Below are positions 16,789-21,164 of a stretch of DNA of 22,676 bases, in pieces. This stretch comes from a virus. The DNA lies in IMG/VR virus record IMGVR_UViG_3300031772_000307, positions 1 through 22,676 of that record; one strand, 5' to 3'. The notes beneath the pieces are model-generated. The model searched no databases and was not told the DNA's origin. It saw only the letters and a program-made list of their open reading frames with translations. The translations under genes were made by a program, and so were the position numbers. Each line of letters begins with the position of its first letter. Position 1 is the stretch's first letter.

Positions 16789-18840
16789 ATGTCAGCACAA
16801 GAAATAGCCACTACCCTCGGGAACGCAAAGAAGGTAGGCAATGGTTACCTAGCATCATGCCCTGTACCCTCTCATGGTCAAGGTAACGGCGACAAGCATC
16901 CAAGCCTATCCATAACTATGTCGGATGATGGCAACTTCCTGTTCAAGTGTCATAGTGGCTGTGACCAGCATACAGTCTTCTCAACCATCAAAGAGATGGG
17001 ACTTCTGCCAGCATTACCAGACAGACCTGACTACCTTGACAGTATCAAACCCATGAAACCAATCCCACTCATCTCTACCCCTGTGCTAGAGCATGAATGG
17101 CATTACACCGATGAAGATGGCACAAGCCTATTCATTAAGCAAAGATTTAAGACCTTTGACTCCAAAGGTAAGACATACAAAACCCTTAGAGTCATGCCTG
17201 ATGGCAGTCGAATTGGCAAGCTAGGAGATTGCCGCCTCGTACCCTACAAGCTGCCCGATCTGCAACAGGCAACAGCCGCTGGTAGGGTTGTCTATATAAC
17301 TGAAGGTGAGAAGGCGGCAGATGCCTTGGGCAGTCTGGGCGTGGTAGCTACGACAAGTCATGCAGGAGCAGGTGGTTGGAGCGATGAGTTAAACCAATAC
17401 TTTAAAGATGCCAACGTGGTAATCGTGCCTGACAATGACCTAGTAGGTTGGCATTACGCTCAGAAGGTTACAGAGGCACTCATACCATTTGCCAAAAGCG
17501 TCAGGGTCTTGGACTTGAACCTGTCGAACCCCAAAGAAGATGCTTACGAGTGGGTCAATAGATACGATGGCAGCAGAACCTTGCTGGCGCAAATAGCGAA
17601 AGCCTGTCCTATCGTGAAGTCAGCAGAAGAAGTCTGGACTCCACAAAGGCTAAGTCTGTATGTCCCTGAAGCATCACAAGACTCTGAACAACCCCCCAAG
17701 TCCAAGTTCCTTGTCGAGTCTTGGGACTCCATAAAGGATGAACCAGTTGAGTGGTTGATTCAGGACATACTGCCTAAAAAAGCATTCTGTGCATTGTTTG
17801 CTCCCCCTGCCTCATGGAAGTCATTTTTAGCACTGGACATGGCTGAAGCAATAGCAACTGGCAGAGATTGGATGGGTTGCAGAATCCCGCAAAAAGGGGC
17901 TGTTCTCATTATTGCTGGCGAGGGACATGGTGGACTAGGTGCTAGGGTTAAGGCTTGCAAGATACAGAACAACTCACCAGATGGGGCAAACCTGTATGTC
18001 ATCAGGTCGCAAATCAACCTTAGATCAAGTCCCGAAGAGTTTGAGGCACTAATTAACTCCATCAATGACTTGATAGCGCAAATTGATGAGCCACTGCAAT
18101 TAGTCATACTAGATACCTTGATGCGTATGAGTGGCGGCAACTTTAACGAGAATAGTTCTGAGGATATGGGTGCGGTAATTACGCAAATAGGCAGAATCCA
18201 ATCCATCTTTGGTTGCGCGATCATGGTCATCCATCACAGTGGTAAAGATGTAACCCGTGGGCTACGAGGTCACTCCAGCTTGCTTGGTGCAGTAGATACT
18301 GAACTTGAAATTAACAGGTTAGATAGCGTCATCAACTCAGCAGACCCATCAGTTAAAGGGTCTGGAACTATCACCACCACAAAGCAGAAAGACGGGTCTG
18401 ACTCCATAGTCATAGGATTTGAGGTCGTACTGATTGAGGTTGGAACATCAGATTTAGGGTTTGAAACCATCACCTCATTAGCCGTTAGACAGAACCAAGA
18501 AGTTGCAAAATCCAACCCCAAAGGCTCTAAGAACAATAATGGCAGCGGCAATAATCAACGCATTGAGTTAGATTCTCTATACAAAGCGATTAAGGCTAAA
18601 GGTTCATATCGTGTAGTGGATGGTTCTAGTAGGTTTGGCGTGAGTTTGGTTGATTGGAAGGATGAATTTTGGAGCATGATGGGATGTACAGAGGATGATA
18701 AAGTTGCTTTCAAGCAGGCTTGGTTACGAGCAAGAAAGAGATTGGTAGCGATAAATAAGGTCACGATTGGGTCAAATTGGGTTTGGCTGAAGTCCACAAT
18801 AGATTACCCAACAGGGGACAAAGGGGACAAAGATGTATAG
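16789..18840 (+). CDS. Primase-helicase (zinc finger, TOPRIM, RecA-like ATPase)
   Basis: A 683-residue fusion. Residues 24-58 hold a primase zinc finger (Cys24, His29, Cys54, Cys58). A TOPRIM domain follows, with EGEKAADAL (about 171-179) and VPDND (about 213-217). After a linker, a RecA/RepA-like ATPase has a P-loop position FAPPASWKSF (about 337-346), Walker B QLVILDT (about 437-443) and HHSGKD (about 481-486). It would prime and unwind DNA for phage replication. The P-loop lacks both consensus glycines. The last codons are made of GGGGACAAA repeats that continue downstream. There is no clear ribosome site. Confidence 0.85.
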   Translation: MSAQEIATTLGNAKKVGNGYLASCPVPSHGQGNGDKHPSLSITMSDDGNFLFKCHSGCDQHTVFSTIKEMGLLPALPDRPDYLDSIKPMKPIPLISTPVLEHEWHYTDEDGTSLFIKQRFKTFDSKGKTYKTLRVMPDGSRIGKLGDCRLVPYKLPDLQQATAAGRVVYITEGEKAADALGSLGVVATTSHAGAGGWSDELNQYFKDANVVIVPDNDLVGWHYAQKVTEALIPFAKSVRVLDLNLSNPKEDAYEWVNRYDGSRTLLAQIAKACPIVKSAEEVWTPQRLSLYVPEASQDSEQPPKSKFLVESWDSIKDEPVEWLIQDILPKKAFCALFAPPASWKSFLALDMAEAIATGRDWMGCRIPQKGAVLIIAGEGHGGLGARVKACKIQNNSPDGANLYVIRSQINLRSSPEEFEALINSINDLIAQIDEPLQLVILDTLMRMSGGNFNENSSEDMGAVITQIGRIQSIFGCAIMVIHHSGKDVTRGLRGHSSLLGAVDTELEINRLDSVINSADPSVKGSGTITTTKQKDGSDSIVIGFEVVLIEVGTSDLGFETITSLAVRQNQEVAKSNPKGSKNNNGSGNNQRIELDSLYKAIKAKGSYRVVDGSSRFGVSLVDWKDEFWSMMGCTEDDKVAFKQAWLRARKRLVAINKVTIGSNWVWLKSTIDYPTGDKGDKDV

Positions 18841-19000: not shown

Positions 19001-19117
19001 GACAAACGAGACAAATAGGGACAAACGATACAAATGTCCCTTCGAGGAGACGGGGACAAACCACCCCTTGTCTATAAACAAGGGGTTTGTCTCCTGCCGG
19101 TTTGTCTCTTTGTCTTT
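19001..19117 (+). repeat. Second GACAAA repeat field with long hairpin
   Basis: GACAAA copies lie at 19001, 19010 and 19019, and GGGGACAAA at 19052-19060. This last copy pairs with TTTGTCTCC (19086-19094; one G-T pair), and inside it CCCCTTGT (19064-19071) pairs perfectly with ACAAGGGG (19078-19085), making a hairpin of about 17 pairs. Inverted TTTGTCTC and TTTGTC copies follow at 19101 and 19110, close to the next gene's ribosome site. Together with the upstream cluster this is a 300-base repeat region. Confidence 0.65.
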
Positions 19118-19134
19118 TGTTAAAGGAAATTAAA

Positions 19135-19791
19135 ATGGTTAGATCAAGGTCAAGAAAAGATGTTCCAGATGTTCAAGTACCGAAACGTCAGGCAACGCAG
19201 TGGGAGATTCAGTCTAACGCTGTGCTGGTGGAGTTGGAGCGTAAAAAGGGTCAACATTACGAGAAATGGGGAGTTGACCGATTGATTACTTTAGTTGACA
19301 TTGAGTTTAGGACTAAGTTTTGGGTGCAGATGGGTAGAGTTTGGGATGCTGTGGACTTGGGTGACATTGATAGGCTGCATAAAGCAGTTAATGGAATGTG
19401 CAAAGGTTTCGATGCTATAGAGAAGTGGGCTGAAGAAAATGAGATTGAGCCTAATCCAGCAATCCAGTTCCTTGAATGGAAGTCAGTCAAGGGTGTTCCG
19501 ATGGTTATCGTCAGGACTGAAGCTGATGCGGTTGAACTTCAGACCCACCGCAAAGACATAAACAATGGGAACATCTGGACACTTGAGGAGATTGAAGTGT
19601 TCCTGCAAGAGCCACAGGTTCAAGAGATCATTAAGCTGAAGGCACTTGTGCCAACGGCAAGGATTACTAAGTTCACGCCTAAAGAGGGATTTGGTCAAGG
19701 TTCAGGGTTTGATGACATGGAAAGCGATCTGGATGCAATCTTCTCTGGTGAGCCTTATGAGGCTAAATATAAGCCGATTGGGACTAAGTAA
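19135..19791 (+). CDS. Hypothetical phage protein (218 residues)
   Basis: ATG 19135 follows AAAGGA by seven bases and is preferred to an in-frame ATG upstream, which would include repeat DNA. The protein is basic at the start (VRSRSRKDVPDVQVPKRQ), then helical with WEIQSNAVLVELERKKGQHY and KWGVDRLITLVD. The middle holds IVRTEADAVEL and WTLEEIEVFLQ, and the C-terminal part is acidic. No catalytic motif is seen. It may form part of the replication or packaging module, standing between the primase and the HNH gene. Function unknown. Confidence 0.75.
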   Translation: MVRSRSRKDVPDVQVPKRQATQWEIQSNAVLVELERKKGQHYEKWGVDRLITLVDIEFRTKFWVQMGRVWDAVDLGDIDRLHKAVNGMCKGFDAIEKWAEENEIEPNPAIQFLEWKSVKGVPMVIVRTEADAVELQTHRKDINNGNIWTLEEIEVFLQEPQVQEIIKLKALVPTARITKFTPKEGFGQGSGFDDMESDLDAIFSGEPYEAKYKPIGTK

Positions 19792-20039
19792 TGAACCGAG
19801 GTGGTAGACCGCCAAGCATTAACTCTCGCTGGTTCTATCGTGAATTAACCATGCCAGACAAGATCATCCTAGCTTGTGCTGGCGATGGGAACATCTCTGA
19901 TGGGTTCAGGAACGTACTTGATGCCTATCAAGTCTTATGGAATTGCGGATACCGCCCCACAGTCGATTTATACGATTTCCTTGGGGTAGATAAGGATGGC
20001 ATAGAAAAGCCTGTTGTAGGCGATTCTGAGGCTTCCTAG
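19791..20039 (+). CDS. Hypothetical protein (82 residues)
   Basis: ATG 19791 shares one base with the previous stop (TAATG). The protein opens with a basic GRPPSINSRWFYREL segment and contains DKIILACAGDGNISDGFRN, then an aromatic helix and an acidic tail. The small basic start could touch DNA. It is the last gene before the 561-base non-coding region. Function unknown. Confidence 0.7.
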   Translation: MNRGGRPPSINSRWFYRELTMPDKIILACAGDGNISDGFRNVLDAYQVLWNCGYRPTVDLYDFLGVDKDGIEKPVVGDSEAS

Positions 20040-20224: not shown

Positions 20225-20267
20225 TTATCCACAGGTTATCCACAGATCGGAGGGTAAGTTGTCCACA
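20225..20267 (+). promoter_or_regulatory. Tandem DnaA boxes
   Basis: TTATCCACA, the consensus DnaA box, is present at 20225-20233 and 20236-20244, eleven bases apart (one helical turn). A one-mismatch copy, TTGTCCACA, is at 20259-20267. All three are in the same direction. They would bind the host DnaA initiator. Confidence 0.8.
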
Positions 20268-20423
20268 ATTTGCCAGTTTGGTTTCATTTCCTGTCACAGT
20301 TTGCAGATACGTGTAACACTTTCAGATATTTAAAGTTAACATAATGGACATTGTATAAAACCGTTTTTGTAAGCAATCTGTAAGTGTTTGTAAAAAGTCC
20401 AGTAGAATCAACAACTTACAGAA

Positions 20424-20458
20424 GTTATCCACAGTATCCACAGATGCCTGTGGATAAC
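20424..20458. promoter_or_regulatory. Inverted DnaA-box pair
   Basis: GTTATCCACAG (20424-20434) and CTGTGGATAAC (20448-20458) form a perfect 11-base inverted repeat, each arm holding a consensus DnaA box. A one-mismatch box, GTATCCACA, lies at 20434-20442. With the tandem boxes about 200 bases upstream they bracket an A/T-rich zone. Confidence 0.8.
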
Positions 20459-20475
20459 TCGGCAATTTTTCGGAT

Positions 20476-20492
20476 GGGGGGGGAGGGGGTGG
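20476..20492 (+). other. G-run, possible G-quadruplex
   Basis: Eight Gs, an A, five Gs, a T and two Gs stand 17 bases after the inverted DnaA boxes, followed by more G-rich bases. This could fold into a G-quadruplex on the plus strand. Long G-runs are also error-prone in sequencing, so the exact length is uncertain. Confidence 0.45.
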
Positions 20493-20600: not shown

Positions 20601-21074
20601 ATGTTGACTCAAGCCAGACTAAAAGAGTTAATGACCTATGACGCTGACACTGGCGTGTTCACCCGAATCAAATCTGTACAGCGATCTGGTCGCCGAGTAA
20701 GTGATATACCAAATACCCACGGGTATCTTTCTGTCTGCATTGACTACAAAATGTATTTACAGCACCGAGCTGCTTGGCTGTACGTTTATGGTAAGTTCCC
20801 TGAAGGTCATTTAGACCACATAAACCGAGTAAAGACGGACAATCGCTTATGTAACTTAAGGGTGGTTACCGACTTTGAAAACAGCCAAAATACTCCACCA
20901 GCAAAAAACAATCTCTATCCCCATGTTCACTGGGTAGCCAAAAAAAATAGCTTTAGAGTGAGAATTAAATCGGCTGGAAAGGCATACGCTAGATACTTTA
21001 AGTCTTTGGAAGACGCAAAAAATTGTTCTGACGAATTTAGGAAAAAATACAAACCCTTATTCACTATTGGTTAA
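20601..21074 (+). CDS. HNH endonuclease with AP2-like C-terminus
   Basis: A 157-residue protein. HRAAWLYVYGKFPEGHLDHI (55-74) holds the HNH His residues (LDH, His73), followed by DNRLCNLRVV and FENSQN, the Asn-rich end of the motif. The C-terminal part, HWVAKKNSFRVRIKSAGK then YFKSLEDAKNCSDEF, resembles an AP2-type DNA-binding unit. This layout is typical of free-standing phage homing endonucleases, and some HNH proteins beside terminase genes aid packaging. A ribosome-site hairpin suggests tight control. It lies between the origin candidate and the terminase genes. Confidence 0.85.
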   Translation: MLTQARLKELMTYDADTGVFTRIKSVQRSGRRVSDIPNTHGYLSVCIDYKMYLQHRAAWLYVYGKFPEGHLDHINRVKTDNRLCNLRVVTDFENSQNTPPAKNNLYPHVHWVAKKNSFRVRIKSAGKAYARYFKSLEDAKNCSDEFRKKYKPLFTIG

Positions 21075-21119
21075 ATCGGCAAAACGAAAATAGAAAAAAA
21101 AGACTATTGACCTCTAATT

Positions 21120-21128
21120 TGCTATAGT
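21120..21128 (+). promoter_or_regulatory. Possible extended -10 promoter for the terminase genes
   Basis: TGCTATAGT in the 90-base gap before the small terminase matches an extended -10 element (TGn then TATAGT). The nearby TTGACC (21107-21112) is only ten bases upstream, too near to be its -35. The predicted transcript would start about 30 bases before the GTG at 21165. Confidence 0.35.
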
Positions 21129-21164
21129 CCCCCCCTATCACGCCCACAACTCCCAAGGACAATC

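Follow-up and report, generated by a model that had tools for sequence, protein, structure and literature searches.

Most well-studied tailed phages start replication with initiators or polymerases of their own. The locus described here may let a phage without a recognised DNA polymerase begin to copy its genome on host machinery, a cluster of DnaA boxes being the proposed starting point. The window, i.e. the whole stretch of DNA analysed, is the entire virus record IMGVR_UViG_3300031772_000307 (22,676 bases) and, going by larger relatives, it is likely to be part of a phage genome that measures about 33-35 kb in full. In one 41-kb contig (G006; L138, L139) the first genes recur at the end, so that the complete genome should measure about 33.1 kb.

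A cluster of DnaA boxes above chance

Six DnaA boxes are arranged around an A/T-rich core, TTAACATAATG (20336..20346, plus strand), from which the distances below are counted. The left array comprises two exact copies of TTATCCACA on the plus strand, box 1 (20225..20233, core -113) and box 2 (20236..20244, core -102), followed by box 3, TTGTCCACA (20259..20267, plus strand, core -79), which has one mismatch here and is exact in most close relatives. Box 2 is the most conserved of all; position -113 is filled in 50 of 196 distinct sites. The right array comprises box 4, an exact TTATCCACA (20425..20433, plus strand, core +87) retained in the window's own subgroup, box 5, a degenerate GTATCCACA with one mismatch (20434..20442, plus strand), and box 6, an exact TTATCCACA on the minus strand (20449..20457, core +111), invariant in the close relatives (36/36). 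Boxes 4 and 6 lie in a perfect inverted repeat of 12 bp (20423..20459), with arms AGTTATCCACAG (20423-20434) and CTGTGGATAACT (20448-20459).

The cluster is real and exceeds chance. Dinucleotide shuffling of the window (300 shuffles) gave a mean of 0.25 exact boxes per 22.7 kb and never more than two exact boxes within 240 bp, against the four observed, which are also the window's only exact boxes. Likewise, none of eight larger related contigs has an exact box outside this one site. The initial annotation had listed four exact and two one-mismatch boxes flanking an A/T-rich zone, which held, the zone being placed between the left and right arrays; its inverted repeat of 11 bases held in part, the true length being 12 bp.

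A fixed distance between box and core

We defined the site set by the core with a box at -101/-102/-103 or -111/-112/-113, which gave approximately 196 distinct sites in IMG/VR. The core, nearly invariant in close relatives, is common to all of these sites and is preceded in them by a box at a near-fixed 101-103 or 112-113 bp; the motif AACATAATG occurs in one copy per phage genome. When IMG/VR was scanned for TTATCCACA at a distance of exactly 102 bp ahead of AACATAATG, at least 120 stretches were returned. Among the spacings of 103-132 bp, 103 and 112 were prominent and brought in family members (28 and 40 new loci, respectively); a spacing of 113 bp is that of box 1 in the window's subgroup. 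Stray spacings gave a few matches each, mostly without family genes; those within 103-132 bp had no more than one or two apiece, none with these genes. Spacings of 82-100 bp gave 52 matches across 19 spacings, incompletely classified, of which at least three (L355, L371 and L403) are family members with further boxes. As the two preferred ranges, 101-103 and 112-113 bp, differ by one helical turn, box and core may need to lie on one face of the helix.

Relatives found by protein search have the array in the same place. The left boxes are at nearly identical spacing in 45 distinct close relatives, 35 of which also have the right array at a fixed distance. Relatives with 42-50% identical proteins have different box arrays, yet they keep a DnaA box 101 or 102 bp before the core. 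More than half of the sites lack the right array, and in some lineages no more than two boxes can be recognised.

Computed instability and a putative IHF site beside the core

The least stable 60 bp near the core, by nearest-neighbour stability, lie at 20313..20372 and form a putative DNA unwinding element, which ranks by computed stability among the most unstable 0.1% of the window. Across nine contigs the 60 bp around the core belong to the most unstable 0.01-0.7% of windows, and the mean stability profile over 189 sites has its minimum at the core. An exact match, AATCAACAACTTA, to the IHF-binding consensus WATCAANNNNTTR (as defined in PMC4585315) is found at 20406..20418 (plus strand). In close relatives the variable positions of this consensus vary and the fixed positions are constant; of 189 sites, 93 have an exact consensus, with few exceptions at core +57/58 or +67/68, offsets that differ by about one helical turn.

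Smaller elements are conserved as well. Two TGTAAG direct repeats 11 bp apart (20368..20384, plus strand), kept as TGT(A/C)AG in close relatives, have an unknown reader, and CTTACA, the inverted copy, is found at 20415-20420. The G tract GGGGGGGGAGGGGG (20476..20489, plus strand), conserved in close relatives, is of unknown role; a C tract replaces it in some distant lineages. Contig breaks nearby had suggested a genome end at the G tract, an idea that was rejected, the ends being scattered.

DnaA as the probable reader of the boxes

The 196 distinct sites hold 527 exact boxes. Boxes with one mismatch depart from the exact form mostly at positions 3, 5 and 1 (83, 81 and 54 boxes), rarely at positions 6, 8 and 9 (8, 1 and 10), and never, across these sites, at positions 2, 4 or 7; the commonest are TTgTCCACA (82) and TTATgCACA (71). 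Because the search seed was an exact or one-mismatch box, the absolute counts are conditioned on it, the spread over positions being unaffected; related sites share ancestry, so that box counts are not independent events. The published DnaA consensus leaves position 5 free (PMC4585315), and the published order of affinity at this position is C, then A or G, then T (PMC5835720). The mismatch pattern matches what is expected of DnaA and fits both the consensus and the position-5 affinity, an inference made from sequence alone, without binding data.

Gene neighbourhood and orientation

Upstream of the site are genes for a RuvC-like resolvase, a DUF2800-type exonuclease, a 197-aa protein without assignment, a primase-helicase (16789..18840, plus strand) and then two proteins of 234 aa (19087..19791, plus strand) and 82 aa (19791..20039, plus strand); downstream are an HNH endonuclease and then the packaging genes. 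The primase-helicase has an AAA_25 RepA-type helicase domain, and a Toprim domain was detected in a relative. The 234-aa protein, which is conserved, family-specific and adjoins the primase-helicase, has no family match and might be an initiator or loader. Its low-confidence AlphaFold model matched no fold in a meaningful way, and no relative was found among the isolate phages searched. The 82-aa protein is conserved and of unknown function. The HNH endonuclease gene (20601-21074) stands between the site and the packaging genes; as the latter lie nearer the core in most relatives, it is probably a homing insertion. An inverted repeat, GACTAT...ATAGTC (21102-21130), directly ahead of the gene preceding the large terminase and retained in many relatives, could be a late promoter or operator.

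Searches of 16 larger relatives turned up no family A DNA polymerase, and searches of eight of these none of family B (PF00136) or III-alpha, all with working controls; a search with PF03175 was uninformative, its control having failed. Nothing in the isolate phages matched the region at the DNA level, and the primase-helicase had only remote relatives there. The bacterial genomes searched likewise gave only remote primase relatives, so that no host or prophage was identified, and an Rfam scan gave nothing close to gathering level.

At 178 of the 196 sites the visible genes (primase-helicase upstream, terminase downstream) run along the site direction, 15 sites are reversed relative to the genes, and 3 have no such gene in view. 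Since the reversed sites have several box arrangements, some common to unreversed ones, it is likely that more than one inversion took place. One reversed group has the site just after the small terminase gene. The 15 reversed sites argue against a promoter, as flipping is tolerable for an origin and not for a promoter; promoter and terminator scans found no more than chance.

The core in bacterial genomes

We scanned 249 Pseudomonadota genomes for a DnaA-type box no more than 20 bp from TTAACATAATG and obtained two matches, with about 0.15 expected by chance (a rough estimate). One match is a plasmid-type origin with a gene of the TrfA/RepC family, iterons and four boxes. The other falls among ten DnaA-type boxes spread over about 430 bp, a locus with the look of a chromosomal, oriC-like origin. 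A looser scan found, in the first genome, a second plasmid-type origin with a CTGTGGATAA-ATTAACATAAT junction, whose replication protein would be of the TrfA/RepC type by analogy, given its likeness to the first and in the absence of a family search. The core thus occurs next to DnaA boxes in known kinds of origin, two of plasmid type and one oriC-like.

The motif TTAACATAAT adjoins a DnaA box in the two plasmid origins of one genome (L406/L408 and L412) and in the oriC-like locus of another genome (L407) from the same bacterial order. It might represent a general unwinding motif. Mimicry of the host origin by the phage was considered and rejected, the triple-box pattern being missing from 398 Pseudomonadota genomes.

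A probable host-DnaA-dependent origin and its rivals

We consider it likely that the site is a host-DnaA-dependent, IHF-assisted phage replication origin. The box cluster beyond chance, the adjacent A/T-rich unwinding element (computed) and the IHF consensus in the window and in 93/189 sites speak for it; the missing IHF site in about half of the sites speaks against it. The sequence directly shows the boxes with their fixed spacings, the core and the IHF consensus, as well as the computed instability, the conservation, the independence of orientation and the lack of three polymerase families in relatives. DnaA and IHF binding and origin activity are inferred, there being no binding or replication data, and so are the melting, the loading of the helicase and the use of a host polymerase.

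In this reading, host DnaA would bind the left array (core -113, -102 and -79) and, in the window's subgroup, also the right array (core +87 to +111), beside which host IHF would bend the DNA in the lineages with an IHF site. In the manner known for DnaA from oriC, the complex would melt the A/T-rich DNA surrounding TTAACATAATG, and the phage primase-helicase would be loaded onto the opened strands, perhaps brought by the 234-aa or the 82-aa protein. Host DNA polymerase III would then copy the phage genome. A bolder reading, which we hold to be less likely than not, is that of a widespread class of phage origin without an initiator of its own. Here host DnaA, unaided, would melt a fixed TTAACATAATG core lying at a helix-phased distance, and would go on to load the phage RepA-type primase-helicase in place of host DnaB.

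The initial annotation had inferred that the phage recruits the host replisome through DnaA. This is supported by the conservation, the box mismatch pattern and the missing polymerases, with binding and origin activity remaining inferred. Its remark that no polymerase is in view held, and was extended by the lack of families A, B (PF00136) and III-alpha in larger relatives. The conservation in relatives that it had proposed as a check was strongly borne out, with boxes, spacing, core and position kept in approximately 196 distinct sites. The check by GC skew gave no support: there is no minimum near 20.3 kb and no GC-skew switch at the site, but gene direction confounds skew here, and both GC skew and third-position skew were uninformative. 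The initial annotation had overlooked that the core is invariant, that an IHF consensus is present, that the spacing is helical and that some sites are inverted.

Three other explanations must be weighed. The boxes could form a DnaA-control locus that titrates DnaA or, with IHF, alters its nucleotide state in the manner of datA or DARS, slowing host initiation or favouring the phage. High-affinity boxes and IHF describe datA too (PMC4585315, PMC10380432), and phage DNA in many copies would bind a large number of DnaA molecules. However, titration requires no invariant core, helical spacing or unstable zone. In both E. coli loci, 5 bp separate the head-to-head boxes of DARS, whereas the phage pairs have a 6-bp gap and are missing in many lineages, and the DARS criterion (a head-to-head pair at DARS spacing plus a third box) is unmet by the phage site. 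Of datA, which is defined by DnaA boxes around a single IHF site and by DnaA-ATP hydrolysis, the window shows the boxes and an IHF consensus, the latter being missing in half of the sites. We regard this explanation as unlikely, and titration, the alternative raised at the outset by the initial annotation, as disfavoured, though possible as a side effect.

The rival least excluded, still an improbable one, is a packaging (pac or cos) site, at which terminase would bind repeats near its own genes with the help of IHF, as at lambda cosB. The site is near the terminase genes in all lineages where these are visible, in one group directly after the small subunit gene, and it has an IHF consensus and a conserved G tract. 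Against this, the repeats show the degeneracy of DnaA boxes, contig ends near the site are scattered without a single point, plasmid origins also have the core plus a box, and inversion is unexpected for a directional signal unless its direction changed too. Very unlikely, finally, is a role in controlling transcription of the late genes, which DnaA would activate or repress. The position between replication and packaging genes would suit it, and DnaA is a known transcription factor (PMC4585315), but 15 sites are reversed relative to the genes, no promoter rises above chance, and the core misfits a -35/-10 pair, as the -10-like positions vary and the would-be spacer is invariant.

If the origin reading is true, a DnaA-box origin in a family of probably several hundred uncultured phages ties phage replication to the control of host initiation, and a phage without a recognised DNA polymerase could start replication on host machinery. 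It also raises the question of how DnaA hands over melted DNA to a foreign helicase. The core with its 101-103 or 112-113 bp spacing is short enough to serve as a testable signature of such origins, with which other phages and plasmids can be screened.

Comparison with known systems

The P1 origin, oriR, resembles the phage site in its two DnaA-box arrays around an unwinding element, its IHF site by one array and its use of host DnaA (PMC4980987). Unlike P1, which has RepA iterons together with a RepA initiator of its own, the phage site has no recognised initiator, and the phage encodes a helicase-primase. In RK2-type (TrfA) iteron origins the DnaA boxes also adjoin the A/T-rich opening zone, and two TrfA/RepC-type origins have TTAACATAAT by a DnaA box; unlike these, the phage has neither a long iteron array nor a TrfA/RepC-type protein. 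No Rep family match was found among the phage genes tested, and repeats were limited to the short TGTAAG. Without an iteron array or a Rep protein found, the phage site falls outside the iteron-plasmid class. The core was not found in the stretch of the IncP plasmid R751 examined.

The E. coli oriC shares exact DnaA boxes, an IHF site and an unstable A/T-rich zone (layout in PMC10380432), but the phage site has one GATC only, no GATC cluster and no consensus Fis site, and box order and orientation differ. The loci datA, DARS1 and DARS2 are likewise box clusters, with an IHF site in datA and DARS2; no unwinding core is described there, and the DARS pair is 5 bp apart against 6 bp in the phage. 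Vibrio phage VH7D has seven direct DnaA-type boxes, three of them exact, in about 110 bp of intergenic DNA (L405:1506-1614), but it is an unrelated, T4-like phage of 247 kb without a TTAACATAATG core in the stretch examined. The ten best isolate-phage records for this type of match are all such Vibrio phages with the same match. A DnaA-box origin has been predicted in a Pseudomonas phage (PMC11512268), and the open-access literature searched has no description of the origin type proposed here. The nearest layouts are those of the P1 origin, the RK2-type origins and E. coli oriC. To the extent that sequence alone can tell, the phage site meets the general definition of a DnaA-dependent origin, in a new form defined by its spacing.
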